Position numbers and translations under genes: made by a program. 64,000 nucleotides of DNA, taken from contig CANKJK010000004.1 in NCBI GenBank assembly GCA_947482665.1, positions 62,001 through 126,000 of the forward strand, read 5' to 3'. This document shows positions 8,383-59,103 of this stretch, in pieces. The DNA comes from Acidobacteriota bacterium. GTDB taxonomy: Bacteria; Acidobacteriota; Vicinamibacteria; Vicinamibacterales; UBA2999. Numbering within the stretch: position 1 is the first letter of the stretch; each line of letters begins with the position of its first letter. The notes beneath the pieces were generated by a model, which saw nothing but the letters and a program-made list of their open reading frames with translations, searched no databases and was not told the origin of the DNA.

Positions 8383-9299
8383 GCGAGGTGCTCCCCGGTG
8401 AAGTGTACGAAGGCGTCCTCGAGCGTGGGCCGTCCGAAGGTCACCGAATCGATCTCACCCGGGAAGGCCTCCACCAGCGCCGGCACGAACTCATGACCGC
8501 GCGCCTTTTCGATCCGGAGGCGGTCGCCCAGGCGGTCCGCCCGCGTCCCGAAGCGCGCTTCAATCTTCTGCGCCAGGACCTCCGGGTCCTTCGCCGTGAC
8601 GACGACGACATCGCCGCCCACCGCCTCCACGAGCGTCGAGGGCGGACCCTGCGCCACGACGCGGCCTTTGTGGAGGATGGCCACGCGGTCGCAGGCCGCG
8701 GCTTCGTCCATCAGGTGCGTGGTCATCACGACCGTCATGCCCTGGGCGCGGAAGCGCAGGAGCTGTTCGCGGACGTCGCGGCGGGCCGAGGGGTCGAGAC
8801 CGGTCGTGGGTTCGTCGAGCAGGAGGAGCTCCGGCCTGGTCAGGAGCGTCTTGGCCAGCTCCGTGCGACGTTGCAGTCCGCCAGAGAGGGTGCCGGCCAT
8901 GTCGGTCACGCGGTCCGTCAGGTGGACGGCCTCAAGCGCGTCACGCGTGCGATCGGCCAGGACTCGGCCCGTCAGGCCGAACAGGTGCCCGTGATGGCGG
9001 AGGTTCTCACCCACGGTGAGCCTGGGGTCGATGGCGGCCGACTGGAAGACGACGCCGAGGCGCCGCCTGGCGCCGTGCGGGTCCTGCACGACGTCGGTCC
9101 CGAAGACGCGCACGTGGCCGGAGGTCGGCGTCAGCAGCGTCGACGTGATGCGGAAGAGCGTGGTCTTGCCGCCGCCATTGGGCCCGAGCAGGGCAAAGAG
9201 TTCTCCTGGCGCGACGGTGAAGGAGACGCCGTCCAGCGCCACGCGCTCACCGTAGAGATGGCGGAGCGCCTCGACCTCGAGCGCGGCTACGGCAGCCAC
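8379..9299 (-). CDS. ABC transporter ATP-binding protein
   Basis: 306 aa from a GTG inside the end of ctaB (13-nt overlap). A complete nucleotide-binding domain is present: Walker A GPNGGGKTT, Q-loop VVFQSAA, signature LSGGLQRR, Walker B LLLLDEPTTGLD, and the H-loop His in TTHLMDEA. The C-terminal tail (about 230-306, ending TLEDAFVHFTGEHL) is typical of drug/NodI/NatA-type ATPases partnered with ABC-2 permeases. The frame is open upstream to 9608, but that part is Arg-rich shadow of ctaB, so the GTG nearest the conserved start (ALEVEALRHLYG) was chosen. Confidence 0.9.
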   Translation of the reverse strand: MAAVAALEVEALRHLYGERVALDGVSFTVAPGELFALLGPNGGGKTTLFRITSTLLTPTSGHVRVFGTDVVQDPHGARRRLGVVFQSAAIDPRLTVGENLRHHGHLFGLTGRVLADRTRDALEAVHLTDRVTDMAGTLSGGLQRRTELAKTLLTRPELLLLDEPTTGLDPSARRDVREQLLRFRAQGMTVVMTTHLMDEAAACDRVAILHKGRVVAQGPPSTLVEAVGGDVVVVTAKDPEVLAQKIEARFGTRADRLGDRLRIEKARGHEFVPALVEAFPGEIDSVTFGRPTLEDAFVHFTGEHLA

Positions 9300-10213
9300 A
9301 GCCGGTCCACCACGAGGGCGACCCAGAGGATGGGCAGATAGATGATCGTGGCCAGGAAGAGCCGGCGCGCCGAGATCTGCGTAAGGGCGTGCCGGAACTG
9401 GTAGGAGAGCACCATCAGCCCGACGCCGAGCACGCCTGCCACGATGAGATACGGGAGCCCTGCCAGCCCCGCCGCTGCCGGTGTGGCGCTCACGCCCACG
9501 AGTGCGCCGGTGTACAGCCATGCGTGTCGGCCCGTGCTCCGGCCGTCCGGTTCGATCACGGGCAGCAGGGGCATGCCGGCCCGCGCGTAGTCCTCGCGGT
9601 ACATCCACGCGAGGGCGAAGAAGTGCGGCATTTGCCAGAAGAACATGATCGCGAAGAGCGCGGCCGCGCCCCAGGAAAGCGTGCCCGTCGCAGCTGCCCA
9701 GCCGATGACGGCGGGCAGCGCACCCGGAAACGCGCCGACCAGGGTCGAATGCCAGGTCCGGAGCTTCAGGGGCGTGTAGATCACCACGTAGCTCAGCAGC
9801 GTAATGAGCGCGGTCGCGGCGGCCACAGTGTTGACACCGAGCGTGAGCTCTCCCAGTCCAAGGACGGAGAGCAGGATGCCGAAGGCCGTGGCGTCCCTTC
9901 CGGTGAGCCGTCCTTCCGGGAGCGGGCGCCTGCGCGTGCGGTGCATCAGGCCGTCGGTGCGCCGCTCCCAGGCCTGATTCAGCGCCGAGGCGCCGCCCGC
10001 CACGAGCGCGGTGCCGACGAGGGTATGCAGGAGGAGCGTCAGCCCCACGCCGTCGGGTGCGCCGAGATAGAGGCCGGCCAGCGTCGAGAAGACGACGAGC
10101 AGATTGAGCCGCGGCTTGGTCAGCGTGACGAAGTCGGCGGGGCGTCCCGGCTGGCGCGCCGCCTCAGCGGCCTGGGCGTGTGTGGCCGCGCCCGTGGCAG
10201 GCGCGGTGTTCAC
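9287..10213 (-). CDS. ctaB: Protohaem IX farnesyltransferase (haem O synthase)
   Basis: 308 aa. It transfers a farnesyl group to haem b, giving haem O for terminal oxidases. Family motifs are present: TKPRLNLLVVFSTLAG, the prenyl-diphosphate-binding region NQAWERRTDGLMHRTRRRPLP, YTPLKLRTWHSTLVGAFPGALPAVIGW and FFWQMPHFFALAWMYREDYARAGMPLLPV. About nine hydrophobic helices are predicted. The GTG start overlaps the ctaA stop as GTGA, a usual coupling, and makes the protein family length; the open frame to 10570 is a shadow of ctaA. Confidence 0.95.
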   Translation of the reverse strand: MNTAPATGAATHAQAAEAARQPGRPADFVTLTKPRLNLLVVFSTLAGLYLGAPDGVGLTLLLHTLVGTALVAGGASALNQAWERRTDGLMHRTRRRPLPEGRLTGRDATAFGILLSVLGLGELTLGVNTVAAATALITLLSYVVIYTPLKLRTWHSTLVGAFPGALPAVIGWAAATGTLSWGAAALFAIMFFWQMPHFFALAWMYREDYARAGMPLLPVIEPDGRSTGRHAWLYTGALVGVSATPAAAGLAGLPYLIVAGVLGVGLMVLSYQFRHALTQISARRLFLATIIYLPILWVALVVDRLWLP

Positions 10214-14329: not shown

Positions 14330-15652
14330 TCAGCGCTGCAGATTGCCGAACCGGTCGTAGTGGCGCGTCGCCTTCCGCGTGCCTTTATAGAGGAAACGCT
14401 GCACGCGGTTCCCGGTCAGGCTTTCGCCGACATAGAGGTTATTCCGGCTGTCGGCCGCAATGGCGTGGGCGATGGTGAACTCGCCGCCCATCTGGCCGCC
14501 GTGGCCGAACTCGCCGATGACCTGCAAGTCCGCCCGGCGCAGAATCCACACCTTGTCGTTGCGGCCATCAGCCACGAACACCCATCGCTGGTCGCGGTCC
14601 TTCGAGAAGTTGAGGTCCAGCACCGTGCCGCGCATCGTGGAGGGCCGGATAAAGGCCTCCTTCACGAACGTGCCGTCCTTCCGGAACACCTGGATGCGCG
14701 AGTTGTTCCGGTCGCCCACGTAGAGCAGGCCGTCCTTGTCGATGCGCGCCGAGTGCGCCACGGCAAACTGCGTCGGCGGCGCGTCGGTGGGCTTCCAGGT
14801 GAAGGGCAGCTTGCGCGGTGGCACCGCGTCGTCCGGCGGCTTGCCGTAGGCGCCCCAGTAACGCTTGTAGGCGCCAGTTTCCGAGTCGAACACGATCACG
14901 CGGCGGTTCTGGTAGCCGTCGGCCACAAAGACCTCGTTCGCCTCGGTGTCGACGGCCACGCCGGCGATGTTGCCGCCCCCGCCCAGCACCCATGTGTTGT
15001 GGCTGTCGACCTTGCCCTTGCCACCGTCATACCCGATCTCGAGCAGGAACTTCCCGTCGCGCGTGAACTCGAGCAGATGCGAACCGCCGAGCCACACACG
15101 GCCCTTCTTGTCGATTGTCAGACTGTGCTCGCCGCGCACCCAGTGGTACGGGCGCGGCTCCAGATTGATGCGCGGCGGCGCGGGCGCCTTCGCGGTGTAG
15201 GTCGGGTCGTAGCCCCGCGGGACCTTCTGCGTGGACGCCTGGTTGGTGCCCTCTCCGCCCCCGCCCGACATGCCGCTCCCCGCCCAGTCATATTCCGGGC
15301 CTGGACCGCCGAAGCCCTGGAGCACCGTGCCGGCCATATCGAACTCGACGACGGCGGGCGGTGGCACGCAGCACTCCGATTCCGGTTCGGGATACGCGGC
15401 GTCGTTCTCATGGCCGGCCAGGACGGAGCGCGGCCGGTTCAGGACCCAGATGTGGTCCTCGGCGTCCACGTCAATGCCGGCGACGTTGCCCAGCACCCAG
15501 TGGTTCGGCAGCGGCCGTTTCGGCCAGTACGGGTCCCACTCGTAGACGGGAACCTGGTCGTCGTGCGCCGGATCGGGCGCCGCCGCAGTGGGCCACCAGC
15601 GGGCGGACGCACCCAGGATCAGGACGAACACAGCCAGCAACAGACGCTTCAT
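14330..15652 (-). CDS. Exported NHL-repeat six-bladed beta-propeller protein
   Basis: 440 aa from an ATG preceded by GGAGG at 12 nt. A signal peptide (MKRLLLAVFVLILGASA) is followed by NHL-like blades with repeated G(V/I)xVDxxxxIWV-type strands (VAGIDVDAEDHIWVLNRP; VAVDTEANEVFVADGYQNRRV; ARIDKDGLLYVGDRNNSRIQVF; IAADSRNNLYVGESLTGNRV). A Cys-Cys-Val-Pro-Pro-Pro segment lies between blades. Such propellers act as periplasmic binding or lyase-like proteins; no catalytic residues could be assigned. It lies downstream of the transglutaminase operon on the same strand, 73 nt away, but looks separate. Confidence 0.8.
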   Translation of the reverse strand: MKRLLLAVFVLILGASARWWPTAAAPDPAHDDQVPVYEWDPYWPKRPLPNHWVLGNVAGIDVDAEDHIWVLNRPRSVLAGHENDAAYPEPESECCVPPPAVVEFDMAGTVLQGFGGPGPEYDWAGSGMSGGGGEGTNQASTQKVPRGYDPTYTAKAPAPPRINLEPRPYHWVRGEHSLTIDKKGRVWLGGSHLLEFTRDGKFLLEIGYDGGKGKVDSHNTWVLGGGGNIAGVAVDTEANEVFVADGYQNRRVIVFDSETGAYKRYWGAYGKPPDDAVPPRKLPFTWKPTDAPPTQFAVAHSARIDKDGLLYVGDRNNSRIQVFRKDGTFVKEAFIRPSTMRGTVLDLNFSKDRDQRWVFVADGRNDKVWILRRADLQVIGEFGHGGQMGGEFTIAHAIAADSRNNLYVGESLTGNRVQRFLYKGTRKATRHYDRFGNLQR

Positions 15653-53824: not shown

Positions 53825-54202
53825 ATGGTCCTCTTTCGCCGCCTCCTGCCGTGGATGGCCGCCCTTAGCCTTGTGCTGCAGATTGGCCTCGGGGGCGTGA
53901 GCCTGTCGGCGATGGCGCCGGCCGAGGCGCCAGCCAGCACCCTCTGCACCTGCTTCCACGGAGCGGACCACCACGGCGAGTGCCCGATGCACCACACCGC
54001 GTCTGGTCAGACCCGCTGCCGCGTGCGCGGGCTCGACGACGCCGCGACGACGGCGCTGGCCGCGCTGCTCGCGCCGCTCACCACGCCGAGCGCTGCTCCG
54101 GCTGATTTCGTTGCGCCGTCGACGGCCGCCGCCTCGCAGTCCGTGCTCGCGCTGCCCATCGCGCGGCCGTTCGTGCCCGACCTCCCCCCTCCCCGCTCCT
54201 GA
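53825..54202 (+). CDS. Small exported Cys/His-rich protein, possible metal binding
   Basis: 125 aa. An N-terminal hydrophobic segment (about 8-30) acts as a signal or anchor. It is followed by a cluster of potential ligands: Cys41, Cys43, His45, His49, His50, Cys53, Met55, His56, His57 and Cys65 in CTCFHGADHHGECPMHH and TRCRVRG. The rest is Ala/Pro-rich and low complexity. CPMHH-type motifs recur in small exported proteins next to metal-related TonB receptors, which fits the receptor gene 180 nt downstream. No enzymatic domain. The open frame extending upstream (to 53009) is antisense shadow of the PIG-L gene. Confidence 0.65.
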   Translation: MVLFRRLLPWMAALSLVLQIGLGGVSLSAMAPAEAPASTLCTCFHGADHHGECPMHHTASGQTRCRVRGLDDAATTALAALLAPLTTPSAAPADFVAPSTAAASQSVLALPIARPFVPDLPPPRS

Positions 54203-54382
54203 CCCTCGCCTGAGGTGCCGGTGTGCCGCGCGTGGTCGCGGCCGCGCCGATCGCGCGCGTGCGTGACGGTACCCGGCGTGTTTCAGATTGCGGACGACGA
54301 CGACTTGTCTCCACAGGGCCGAATCCCGGCGCCCGTGGTGAGACGGGTGTCCGCGTTGGCCGCCAGTCAGGAGAGTGCAGTC

Positions 54383-57214
54383 ATGCGTGTACGCTATCGC
54401 GCGTGCCTCGTCGCCGTGATGCTGGTCTTCGGCATCAGCGCAGGCGAGGTTCGCGCACAGGAATCCGTGTCACAGGGCTCCATCAGCGGTCGCGTGGTCG
54501 ACCCGCAGGGGGCCAGCATTGCCGGCGCCGAGGTGCGCGTCCGGCAGATAGAGACCAACGTGGAGGCGAGCGGCGTCACCGACGACGCCGGGCGCTTCCG
54601 CTTCGGCGCCCTGCGCGTCGGGCCCTACGAACTCACCGTCCGCCGGCCGGGGTTTGCCGAGTCACGGCAGAACGTGACCGTGCTCGCGGCGTCGGCCTTT
54701 GACGTGGCGGTCAGCCTGGCAGTCGCCGGCCTCACCGCCGATGTCGCTGTCACGGCCGAGGCGCCCATCCTGGAAGGCGCACGCAGCCAGATCGCTTCGA
54801 CGGTCGCGCAGGCCGAAATCCGTGACCTGCCGATGAACGGGCGGAACTTCCTCGATCTGGCTCTTCTCGCGCCCGGCGTCGCGCCCGCGAACCTCGCCAG
54901 CGGCCAGCTCTTCCCGGAAACCTCCGCGGTGCCCGGGCAGGGGCTCGCCATGTCGAGCCAGCGGAATCTCTCGAATAACTTCATCGTCGATGGCCTCTCG
55001 GCCAACGACGATGCGGCGGCGCTCTCGGGCATGCCCTATAGCGTCGACGCCGTGGAGCAGTTCCAGGTCGTGACCTCCGGCGGGCAGGCCGAGCTGGGTC
55101 GCGCGCTTGGCGGCTACGTGAACGTCGTCACGCGCAGCGGTACCAACCGGCTGCGGGGTGACCTCTTCGGCTACCTTCGCGACGACCGGTTCAACGCGGC
55201 CAACGCGCTCTCCGGCACCACGCTCCCGATGTCGCAGAGGCAGTACGGCCTGAGCGTCGGAGGGCCCGTGTCGCGGAACCGCACGTTCTTCTTCGGCAAC
55301 ATCGAGCACCGGCTGCTCGACCAGACCGGCTTCACGACCGTGCCGCAGGCGACGGTGAATGTGATCAACGCGCGTCTCGCCTCCGTGGGCTACCCGGGTG
55401 CGCCGGTCAAGACCGGTGTCTACGAGAACCCCGTGCACACGGTGATGGCGCTTGCGAAGGTGGATCACCGCATCGGCTCGGGCGGACAGCTCTCCGTCCG
55501 CTACAGCGCCTACACCGCGGACTCGCAGAACTCCCGCGGCGCGGGCGGCCTCTCAACGCCGTCGGCGTCAGCGGGGCTCGACAACCTCGATCAGGCGGTG
55601 GCCGTCGCGCACACGCAGGCGTTGTCGTCGCGTCTCCTCAACGAGGTCCGCGCGCAGTGGACCCACAGCGACCTCAAGTCCCCACCGAGCGATCCGGTCG
55701 GGCCCGCTGTCAGCATCGCGGGTGTCGCCTCGTTCGGCACACTCTCCGGGAGTCCTGTGGGCCGGACGAACTCGATGGTCGAGGCGTTGGAGAGCCTGAC
55801 CTATCAGCGCGGCTCGCACGCTGTCCGTGCCGGCGCCTCATTCCTCTTCAACAGCGACGTCATCACGTTCCCACGAGCCGTGCGCGGGTCGTACGCCTTC
55901 TCGTCGCTCGCGAACTTCCTGTCGGGCACCTACAACAACCAGGGATTCACGCAGACGTTCGGCCAGACCGTCGTGGAGCAGACCAATCCGAACGTCGGGG
56001 TGTACGCGCAGGATGAGTGGCGCATCCGCCCGGGTCTGACGGCTAACGTGGGTCTGCGGTACGACCTGCAGTATCTCGACACCACTACGACCGACACCAA
56101 CAACCTCGCGCCGCGCGTGGGACTGGCCTGGACGCCGGACGGGAAGGCCACCACGGTCATCCGCGGGAGCGCGGGTCTCTTCTTCGACCGTGTGCCCCTG
56201 CGAGCGGTGGCCAACGCGCTGCTCTCTGCTGGCAATACTACGGACCTGGCGAACCTGCGGCAGATCGGCATCAGCCTCTCGCCTTCGCAGACCGGCGCGC
56301 CCGTGTTTCCCGCCATCCTCACCGAGGCCGTGCCGTCGGTGACGCTCATCAACCTGACGACCATGAACCCGGCCATGCAGAATGCCCGCTCTCGGCAGGC
56401 GAGCGTGGAAGTGGAGCGGCAGCTCGACAGCCGCACCACGCTGAGCGCGTCCTACCAGTACCTGCGCGGACTCGAACTCGTCATGGCCATCAACCGAAAC
56501 GTTCCGACGTGCGCAGCCGCAGGCACGAACAATGGCTGCCGCCCCATCTCCGCCTACGCCAACAACAGCCAGTACTCCCCGGCGGGCACCTCCACCTATC
56601 ACGGCCTGCAGGTGGCGCTCCAGCAGCGGCCCTCCACGTGGGGCAGCTACCGCGTGAGCTACACACTCTCAAAAGCGAAGAACAACGTCGGCGAAGCCTT
56701 CTTCAGCGGTCCGATCGATCCGACCGACCTCTCCAGGGACTGGGGTCGATCGGACAGCGACCAGCGCCACCGGCTCGTGGTGAACGGCTCCATTCACACG
56801 CCACTGACGCCAGCGATGACGGCATGGGCGCATGTCGCGCACGGCTTCCAGGTGAGCGGCATCCTGCAGAGCTATTCGGCTCTGCCGTTCAACATCACGT
56901 CCGGCGTGACCACGCTCCAGGGCACGGCGGGCCGGCCGATGGTCGACGGGGCGTTCATCACCAGAAATGCCGGCGAGAGTACGCCGTTCTTTTCGCTCGG
57001 ACTGCGCGTGAGCCGATCGTTCAGCCTTGGCGGATCTGCGCGGCTTGAGGCGCTGGCCGAAGTGTTCAATCTGACCAACCATGTGAATGTCGTTGCGAGG
57101 AACGCGAACTTTGGCGCCGGGGCGTATCCCTCTAATCCGTCCCCAACCTTCGGGCAGGTGACAGCGGTGGGCGAACCACGCTCCTGGCAGTTCGGCGCGA
57201 GAATGGGCTTCTGA
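54383..57214 (+). CDS. TonB-dependent-receptor-like outer-membrane protein with carboxypeptidase-regulatory domain
   Basis: 943 aa. Start chosen at 54383 behind CAGGAGAG, beginning a signal peptide (CLVAVMLVFGISAGEVRAQ). Carboxypeptidase-regulatory-like fold at about 32-115 (GRVVDPQGASIAGAEVRV; GRFRFGALRVGPYELTV), then plug elements (VTAEAPILEGARSQIA; LPMNGRNFLDLALLAPGV; VDGLSANDDAA; VVTSGGQAELGRALGGYVNVVTRSGTN), and a large barrel ending WQFGARMGF with terminal Phe. Its stop overlaps the next ATG (TGATG). The flanking genes carry Cys/His clusters, so the ligand may be a metal complex. 180 nt of untranslated leader precede it. Confidence 0.88.
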   Translation: MRVRYRACLVAVMLVFGISAGEVRAQESVSQGSISGRVVDPQGASIAGAEVRVRQIETNVEASGVTDDAGRFRFGALRVGPYELTVRRPGFAESRQNVTVLAASAFDVAVSLAVAGLTADVAVTAEAPILEGARSQIASTVAQAEIRDLPMNGRNFLDLALLAPGVAPANLASGQLFPETSAVPGQGLAMSSQRNLSNNFIVDGLSANDDAAALSGMPYSVDAVEQFQVVTSGGQAELGRALGGYVNVVTRSGTNRLRGDLFGYLRDDRFNAANALSGTTLPMSQRQYGLSVGGPVSRNRTFFFGNIEHRLLDQTGFTTVPQATVNVINARLASVGYPGAPVKTGVYENPVHTVMALAKVDHRIGSGGQLSVRYSAYTADSQNSRGAGGLSTPSASAGLDNLDQAVAVAHTQALSSRLLNEVRAQWTHSDLKSPPSDPVGPAVSIAGVASFGTLSGSPVGRTNSMVEALESLTYQRGSHAVRAGASFLFNSDVITFPRAVRGSYAFSSLANFLSGTYNNQGFTQTFGQTVVEQTNPNVGVYAQDEWRIRPGLTANVGLRYDLQYLDTTTTDTNNLAPRVGLAWTPDGKATTVIRGSAGLFFDRVPLRAVANALLSAGNTTDLANLRQIGISLSPSQTGAPVFPAILTEAVPSVTLINLTTMNPAMQNARSRQASVEVERQLDSRTTLSASYQYLRGLELVMAINRNVPTCAAAGTNNGCRPISAYANNSQYSPAGTSTYHGLQVALQQRPSTWGSYRVSYTLSKAKNNVGEAFFSGPIDPTDLSRDWGRSDSDQRHRLVVNGSIHTPLTPAMTAWAHVAHGFQVSGILQSYSALPFNITSGVTTLQGTAGRPMVDGAFITRNAGESTPFFSLGLRVSRSFSLGGSARLEALAEVFNLTNHVNVVARNANFGAGAYPSNPSPTFGQVTAVGEPRSWQFGARMGF

Positions 57215-58521
57215 TGACACGCGGATGGCGGGTGCTCCTATTTGTGGCGGCAGGCTTACCCGCGGCGCTGGGCGTGTTCGCCCAGCGCCCGCCGTCCGCG
57301 CCTCTCCCCACCGTGCCCATCGTCCGGCTCGCCGTGCCGGATCGCATGAATGCGGTGCCGGCCCTGGCCGCGCGCGGGGCGTTTGTCGCCGTCGTCTGGG
57401 CGGCGACCGCTGAGAACCAGACGGACGCCTTCGTGGCGGTGAGCCGCGACGGCGGCCGCAGCTTTGGTGGTCCGAGCCGCGTGAACGATGTGCCAGGCAC
57501 GGTGCGGGCCGCGACCGAGAGCGGGCCACGCGTGGCCCTGGGGCCGCCGCTGGCGGGTCGAACGGACCCTGTCGTGACCGTGGTCTGGGCGGGTCGTGAG
57601 CCGGCCTCGACGATTCGGCTGACGCGCTCACGCGACGGTGGCCGCACGTTCGACGCGTCGACGCGGCTCGAGGGCGAACACGCCGTGGGCAATCGCGGCT
57701 GGGCCTCGCTCGACGTCGACGATCGCGGCGCGGCGCGCGTGGTCTGGCTGGATCACCGGCGCACGGCAGCGTGGCCGGGCGGCGAACATCACCATGGCGG
57801 AGGCGTCACATCGGCCCCGGTTCGCGACACGGAGCCGACGCCCACGGATGCGGTGGCGCGCGCCCAGCTCTCAGGGCTCTATATGGCGTCCGGTTCAGGG
57901 CCGGCGAGGGAGATCGCGCGCGGCGTCTGCTATTGCTGCAAGACCTCCATGGCATCAGGCCCTGGCGGTGTCGTGGTGGCGTCGTGGCGGCACGTGTTCG
58001 ACGGCAACCTTCGCGACATCGCGTTCGTGCTCTCTCGCGATGGGGGGCGCACGTTCGGTGCGCCCACACGCGTCAGTCAGGATGGATGGGCAATCGACGG
58101 CTGCCCCGAGGATGGCCCGGCCGTGGCGCTCGATACGACCGGAGCCGTCCATCTCGCGTGGCCGACCGTCGTGCCCGGCCCAGCGCCGTTCAAGGCTGTC
58201 TTCTATGCGTCAGCCCGCGACGGCGTGCATGCCTCTCCCCGGATGCAGCTCAGTCCCCGTGGGCGGACCGTCGCGCATCCCTCTATCGTGCTGGCAGCGG
58301 ATGGGTTGCCCCTCGTCGCGTGGGACGGTGCAGGGACGGACCGTGCGATCTGGGTGACGGCAGGCATGAAGAACGGGCGTTTCGGTCCACCCACACGGCT
58401 GAGCGGCGAGGTGGACGCCTCCTACCCTGTGGGCGCACGCACGAGCGACGGTGTGCTCTGGGCCTGGCGCGAGCAGGAAGGCGCCGCGACCCGAATCGCG
58501 GTGAGCCGCCCGCCGCGTTAG
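57214..58521 (+). CDS. Exported BNR/Asp-box (sialidase-fold) protein with His and Cys clusters
   Basis: 435 aa. Signal peptide about 1-23. The propeller has Asp-box repeats SRDGGRSFGG near 77, SRDGGRTFD near 139 and LSRDGGRTFGAP near 274. Sialidase catalytic residues (Arg triad, nucleophile Tyr) were not recognised, so it is better called a BNR-repeat binding protein. Two insertions stand out: GGEHHHGGG near 189 and GVCYCCKTSM near 238 (three Cys in four residues). Both look like metal sites. It is translationally coupled to the receptor gene, supporting a joint role, perhaps in copper capture. Confidence 0.75.
   Translation: MTRGWRVLLFVAAGLPAALGVFAQRPPSAPLPTVPIVRLAVPDRMNAVPALAARGAFVAVVWAATAENQTDAFVAVSRDGGRSFGGPSRVNDVPGTVRAATESGPRVALGPPLAGRTDPVVTVVWAGREPASTIRLTRSRDGGRTFDASTRLEGEHAVGNRGWASLDVDDRGAARVVWLDHRRTAAWPGGEHHHGGGVTSAPVRDTEPTPTDAVARAQLSGLYMASGSGPAREIARGVCYCCKTSMASGPGGVVVASWRHVFDGNLRDIAFVLSRDGGRTFGAPTRVSQDGWAIDGCPEDGPAVALDTTGAVHLAWPTVVPGPAPFKAVFYASARDGVHASPRMQLSPRGRTVAHPSIVLAADGLPLVAWDGAGTDRAIWVTAGMKNGRFGPPTRLSGEVDASYPVGARTSDGVLWAWREQEGAATRIAVSRPPR

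Positions 58522-58671: not shown

Positions 58672-59103
<432 letters not shown>

Follow-up and report, generated by a model that had tools for sequence, protein, structure and literature searches.

What is the function of a locus that encodes, in a row and on the same strand, a small Cys/His-rich protein, a TonB-type receptor and a beta-propeller? We analysed such a locus in a window of 64,000 nucleotides taken from the 3.5 Mb assembly of a soil bacterium of the Acidobacteriota (GCA_947482665.1, contig CANKJK010000004.1). The initial annotation had proposed the uptake of copper or another soft metal, with the small protein as an extracytoplasmic chelator and a propeller that binds rather than hydrolyses its ligand. 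Its description of the genes was accurate (Table 1): the 125-residue ORF, with ten Cys/His/Met in 25 residues, lies where it had been placed, the receptor matches the CarboxypepD_reg and OMP_b-brl_4/TonB barrel profiles, both EHHHGGG and CYCCKT occur in the propeller, whose start codon overlaps the receptor stop in TGATG (TGA at 57212-57214, ATG at 57214-57216). We think it likely that the three genes form a copper-acquisition operon under the control of a copper-sensing leader peptide, and hereafter call the small protein the leader.

Table 1. Position of the features of the locus in the window.
Feature	Position	Strand	Remark
Leader ORF, 125 aa	53825..54202	+	N-terminus hydrophobic, followed by the Cys/His cluster and a C-terminal tail rich in Pro; putative nascent-chain regulator that senses copper
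Metal-ligand cluster, residues 41-65 (CTC...HH..CPMHH...C)	53945..54019	+	All 14 rows of alignment A1 share C-P-x-H; the last Cys is at -61, counted from the C-terminus
C-terminal tail PDLPPPRS + stop	54176..54202	+	Proposed ribosome-arrest motif
Spacer, 180 nt, leader stop to receptor start	54203..54382	+	Proposed attenuation site
TonB-dependent receptor, 943 aa	54383..57214	+	CarboxypepD_reg + OMP_b-brl_4
CxCC beta-propeller, 435 aa, exported	57214..58521	+	Start codon overlaps receptor stop (TGATG)
EHHHGGG (context GEHHHGGG)	57784..57804	+	Low-confidence loop; variable but His-containing among aligned propellers
CYCCK, residues 239-243	57928..57942	+	Invariant; core of the proposed metal site
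GCP, residues 296-298	58099..58107	+	Invariant; fourth conserved Cys

As the start of the receptor gene, GTG 54215 was rejected in favour of ATG 54383, which has an AGGAG Shine-Dalgarno sequence and opens a signal-like N-terminus. An exported FKBP-type prolyl isomerase is encoded on the same strand about 150 nt after the propeller (58672-59103).

Close matches to the propeller (E below 1e-60) were found in 23 of 99 genomes, including the one containing the window (24 matches, leaving out partial ones at contig ends), and the receptor in 30 of the 99 at E<=1e-180. In relatives, the receptor and the small protein cluster with the propeller. The order leader-receptor-propeller is found in L047, L048, L051 and L056 to L060, and in L062, where a contig end cuts the propeller. 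Judging from this gene order, the three genes are a conserved cluster in the Vicinamibacterales (Acidobacteriota). Its maintenance in relatives, as well as the invariance of CYCCK in 35 propellers from two phyla, goes beyond chance. A sample of 396 genomes across the phylum gave 13 matches, all in one order. Searching GTDB species contigs with the propeller alignment gave 41 loci; those with named records are mostly from Acidobacteria/Vicinamibacteria and Gemmatimonadetes MAGs, and a few names, e.g., Bifidobacterium, evidently belong to mislabelled MAGs. Most of the sequences compared are MAG-derived. Propellers can also occur with neither leader nor receptor next to them (e.g., L043, L049, L099, L106). 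In three loci of one genus (L055, L065, L066), the leader is directly 5' of the propeller, a methyltransferase gene follows the latter, and the receptor gene is elsewhere in the genome.

The propeller provides the link to copper. Its Pfam match, to BNR_2 (PF13088), is weak and below the cut-off, and a sequence search revealed no relative in the PDB. An AlphaFold2 model (pLDDT 87, pTM 0.86) has as its nearest folds PLL-type lectins, CylK and glycan-active propellers, although a shared propeller fold shows no function. The protein thus resembles the sialidase family and BNR_2 propellers in its Asp-box propeller fold, with three SxDGGRxF boxes, and in its weak PF13088 match. It differs from them by an invariant CxCC and Cys-Pro, by its copper-gene neighbourhood, and by the lack of the F/YRIP (FRIP) motif of sialidases, both in the window protein and in nine homologues from plasmids. 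Eight residues are invariant in the 35 propellers: C239, Y240, C241, C242, K243, C297, H181 and H355. From this invariance, rather than from geometry, we infer a metal site composed of CxCC, GCP and His. These features, conserved across phyla, support the earlier proposal of a binding role.

More distant homologues retain the CxCC. Among eight divergent loci, two lie among copper genes: one next to a multicopper oxidase, CopB and a P-type ATPase (L164), the other next to a P-type ATPase with YHS and a multicopper oxidase (L165). Four divergent CSCC/CTCC paralogues (L161, L162, L163, L167) have no obvious copper neighbour. On plasmids of Alphaproteobacteria and Gammaproteobacteria, homologues named 'sialidase family protein' are found among copper genes. 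A CxCC followed about 55 residues later by Cys-Pro is present in 10/10 plasmid proteins, and nine of the ten neighbourhoods, as a raw count, have an annotated copper gene within ~7 kb; the tenth, from Spirosoma (Bacteroidota), has a Cys-rich DUF326 protein. These are not ten independent cases, since several share one Roseobacter island. The genes in the copper islands of Roseobacteraceae and Methylomagnum plasmids (L168-L176) all encode CxCC and Cys-Pro, and their annotation as sialidases is probably misleading. The Methylomagnum copy adjoins CopC and is near amoA/amoB.

Copper genes are also found around the propeller in closer relatives, and this evidence does not depend on the small protein. 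MbnP (TIGR04052) and MbnH (TIGR04039) are encoded downstream of the propeller in L065, both above the cut-off, MbnH is near it in L104, and tblastn matches to both are near it in L117 and L126. CopC occurs in L104, L117 and L126, and CopD in L126. PCuAC lies within 3-8 kb of the propeller in four genomes (G028, G030, G032, G035), which amount to two independent cases, i.e., two genera. In five Gemmatimonadota loci (two of them profile-tested), a gene for a TlpA/ResA-like thiol reductase is directly 5' of the propeller, which suits a protein whose cysteines have to remain reduced. In L049, L050 and L053 we noticed, by eye, two-component genes near the propeller that resemble a RegB/RegA-type redox pair. 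In relatives, CPMHH-type proteins do accompany the CYCC propeller and copper genes, a check that the initial annotation had suggested, and its soft-metal locus can be narrowed down to copper by the repeated presence of MbnP/MbnH, PCuAC, CopC/CopD, PepSY_TM and multicopper oxidases. It is very improbable that the metal is instead zinc, nickel or mercury, or that the locus takes up sugars or glycans with the propeller as a lectin. The nearest folds of the model would fit the latter and one plasmid copy is near mer genes, but the neighbours repeatedly belong to copper-specific families, and an invariant CxCC and Cys-Pro, together with the missing FRIP motif, are not what a lectin or glycosidase would show.

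Beside the window locus itself we recognized no copper gene, and no PCuAC was found anywhere in its genome. Hence, copper as the ligand of this locus is inferred from its relatives. The genome encodes two heme-copper oxidase subunit I (COX1) proteins and one Cu ATPase and thus needs copper.

The role of the small protein is where our reading departs from the earlier one. Its residues 41-65 (CTCFHGADHHGECPMHHTASGQTRC) contain 4 Cys, 5 His and 1 Met, with ligands arranged as C41xC43, C53PMH and C65, and the N-terminus is, judged by eye, basic and hydrophobic. It matches no Pfam or NCBIfam family, the sole hit (GNAT_like) being sub-threshold. Both the CXXC copper motif and a C-terminal RAPP are absent. 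The tail is conserved. In an alignment of 14 leaders the mean column identity is 31%; C-P-x-H and three Pro of the tail are nonetheless invariant, and all 14 end in PPP[RK], one residue and the stop. In all relatives, the residue after the Pro run of the leader tail is R or K. Among the Vicinamibacterales leaders, 23/23 end in Pro-Pro-[RK]-x-stop, mostly as PPPR, with two reading PRPPR. Of the 542 ORFs that were called across the window and 40 loci, at least 11 end in PPP[RK]x-stop, a minimum since some known leaders escaped the ORF caller, and every one of the 11 is such a leader.

The distance from the last Cys to the C-terminus is also constant. A Cys is located 51-62 residues before the C-terminus in all 31 leaders collected from two phyla, of which 23/23 in the Vicinamibacterales, and these had been selected for their tail and Cys content, not for spacing (starts in relatives were assigned by rule). 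In the 23 Vicinamibacterales leaders, the segment from this Cys to the tail has a median identity of 13%, versus 75% for the last eight residues. A Cys at -51 to -62 with none in the last 50 residues is found in 21/23, against a mean of 1 and a maximum of 5 in shuffles.

Given the conserved tail and Cys-to-end spacing, and the parallels with CruR and CutF described below, the small protein most likely acts as a nascent-chain copper sensor of their type rather than as a copper scavenger. That it is a finished extracytoplasmic chelator, bufferin-like or metallothionein-like, feeding the receptor or the propeller, seems distinctly unlikely to us. The dense Cys/His/Met cluster, the hydrophobic N-terminus and the extra CPMH repeats in the leaders of some relatives would agree with such a role. 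However, chelation predicts neither an invariant tail with a single residue between it and the stop codon, nor a fixed distance from the last Cys to the C-terminus, nor a spacer before the receptor gene. It also leaves unexplained why the leader stands upstream of differing genes, mostly the receptor but directly the propeller in L105, L108, L109, L112 and L119. Moreover, no mature protein was detected for CruR or CutF, which are built alike (PMC9426467, PMC9973294). Overall, 16 of the ~25 receptor loci with enough upstream DNA carry a leader. One locus, L104, has two PPPR leaders (9298-9747 and 14362-14811). One precedes propeller-CopC-MbnH; the other stands upstream of a gene for a cytochrome c-domain protein, after which comes a PCuAC match.

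Leaders with the same layout but a tail of NGPP, NAPP or TAPP are found in Gemmatimonadota, where the order leader-receptor-[TlpA-like]-propeller recurs with unrelated-looking leaders. The DUF2946 profile (PF11162) matched none of the 14 leaders at E<=1 and nothing in the genome of the window at E<=0.05, so membership of the leaders in this family was rejected at the profile level. Comparing the profile of the Vicinamibacterales leaders with the Gemmatimonadota ones and one DUF2946-like leader gave a probability of 4%, i.e., no detectable homology. The shared layout may therefore reflect convergence or very old descent. One relative (G006, loci L044/L128) shares the VWA and PIG-L neighbours of the window but lacks a leader-receptor pair upstream of its propeller. 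Directly downstream of this propeller there is, instead, a leader of DUF2946-like type (CFLC...RAPPA-stop) together with a ZnuD-like receptor, an apparent module swap.

If the leader is a sensor, the spacer before the receptor gene is the candidate site of control. It spans 74-157 nt in the 17 relatives with a placeable start. In the last 210 nt of the leader, C exceeds G in the window and in 22/22 relatives, which is compatible with a Rho site and also with Pro/Ala/Thr-rich coding. A TGGTGT element is enriched in the spacers (8/18, shuffle mean 0.8, maximum 5), mostly ~50 nt downstream of the leader stop and often behind a stable hairpin (in the window, and e.g., in L140, L148 and L151), and is possibly an RNA element of an attenuator; some spacers come from congeneric species, and these counts are thus not fully independent. 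The spacers align poorly over their length and gave no usable consensus structure. Pairing of the Shine-Dalgarno region with the 26 nt that directly follow the leader stop, which would sequester it, was not significant, as 59 of 200 shuffle sets reached the mean duplex energy.

We propose the following working for the locus. Under copper scarcity, the ribosome would pause at the Pro-rich tail while translating the leader, and this pause would let transcription or translation continue into the genes for receptor and propeller. With enough copper, the metal would bind the Cys/His cluster of the nascent chain; at ~55-85 residues from the last codon, this cluster would by then have just left the ribosome or lie in the translocon. 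Binding would release the pause and switch off the downstream genes, by Rho acting in the spacer if the analogy with CruR holds. The receptor would import a copper complex across the outer membrane, and the translationally coupled propeller, once exported, would hold copper through the CxCC thiolates and the Cys of GCP and hand it to periplasmic copper proteins.

The same leader-controlled operon might also work in the opposite direction, with copper prolonging the stall and opening the next gene, for tolerance rather than uptake. This is the direction in which CutF acts (PMC9973294), many of the CxCC propellers are located in copper-resistance islands, and TGGTGT could be part of such a switch. 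Yet a TonB-type importer is expected to be copper-repressed, like bfrG in Bordetella, the neighbours MbnPH, PCuAC and PepSY_TM point to supply, and the pairing between spacer and Shine-Dalgarno sequence is not significant. We therefore regard activation by copper as rather unlikely and keep repression by copper as the preferred reading.

Two generalizations taken jointly are, in our view, slightly favoured by the sequence comparisons. CxCC propellers would be a cross-phylum periplasmic family handling copper, filed as sialidases and found in both supply operons and resistance islands, and the Vicinamibacterales leaders would be a new class of copper-responsive arrest peptides (tail P-D/E-x-PPP-R/K-x-stop) with the geometry of CruR and no detectable homology to it. 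Characterised arrest motifs are RAPP-like, and PPPR is not among them. Judged against the open-licence literature, the copper-associated CxCC family and the PPPR leaders are most likely new, and the propeller is the more interesting part. Outer-membrane entry and sensing of copper are still poorly known in Gram-negative bacteria, the characterised examples considered here being from Proteobacteria. Our reading, if true, would add Acidobacteriota and Gemmatimonadota to the groups with co-translational copper sensing, there with another tail motif. It would also allow a comparative test of what arrest peptides need, the Cys-to-tail distance being the apparent constant, and give a testable function to the 'sialidase family protein' genes travelling on marine Roseobacteraceae copper plasmids.

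How does the locus compare with known systems? In the archaeon Nitrososphaera viennensis, the gene clusters shown as upregulated under copper limitation include a putative sialidase together with DsbD (PMC7785015), a possible experimental link between propellers and copper, likened here by annotation and not by CxCC. CruR and CutF are copper-responsive leaders that act during their own translation (PMC9426467, PMC9973294). CutF of Rhodobacter capsulatus has a CxxxC, a Pro-rich end and acts in cis; bound copper increases stalling and opens a stem-loop for the multicopper oxidase, and we found no significant equivalent pairing (PMC9973294). CutF-like proteins have fewer than 150 aa, Pro-Pro near the end and a metal cluster, and often precede TonB-like and PCuAC genes (PMC9973294). 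The leader, with 125 aa, has PP within its last 15 residues and a same-strand next gene within 1000 nt, as in the definition of that study, whose main text has no mention of Acidobacteriota, Gemmatimonadota or BNR/propeller neighbours (PMC9973294). That definition also asks for a Sec signal peptide, for which the basic and hydrophobic N-terminus of the leader is a candidate.

The closest parallel is the Bordetella pertussis operon cruR-bfrG/crtA-bp2921 (PMC9426467; for its receptor, PMC12914433). In both operons a small Cys leader, probably exported in the case of the window, is the first of three genes and a TonB-dependent receptor the second, with a spacer of 162 nt in Bordetella versus 180 nt here. 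Both leaders have a Pro-rich C-terminus, a last motif Cys that precedes the end by ~50-60 residues (by 53 in CruR, where it is C93 of 145, the second Cys of CXXC; PMC9426467) and an excess of C over G in their 3' part, the rut region in CruR. Adding five residues to this spacing strongly reduced copper control by CruR (PMC9426467), whose arrest at RAPP was demonstrated in vitro (PMC12992588). Unlike CruR, the window leader has neither a DUF2946 match nor a CXXC, and its tail is PPPR-x instead of RAPP. The receptor is of the PF25183 type with CarboxypepD_reg and is likened to CrtA by reported features, not by sequence: the ligands conserved in at least 90% of its 29 orthologues are two His, with no Cys or Met, and CrtA likewise has two conserved His and no conserved Cys/Met, a parallel and not a class membership. 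The third gene encodes the CxCC propeller here and a PepSY_TM protein in the CruR operon. In one relative (L050) PepSY_TM and a siderophore-type receptor are found next to the propeller, which is the CrtA/CrpH arrangement.
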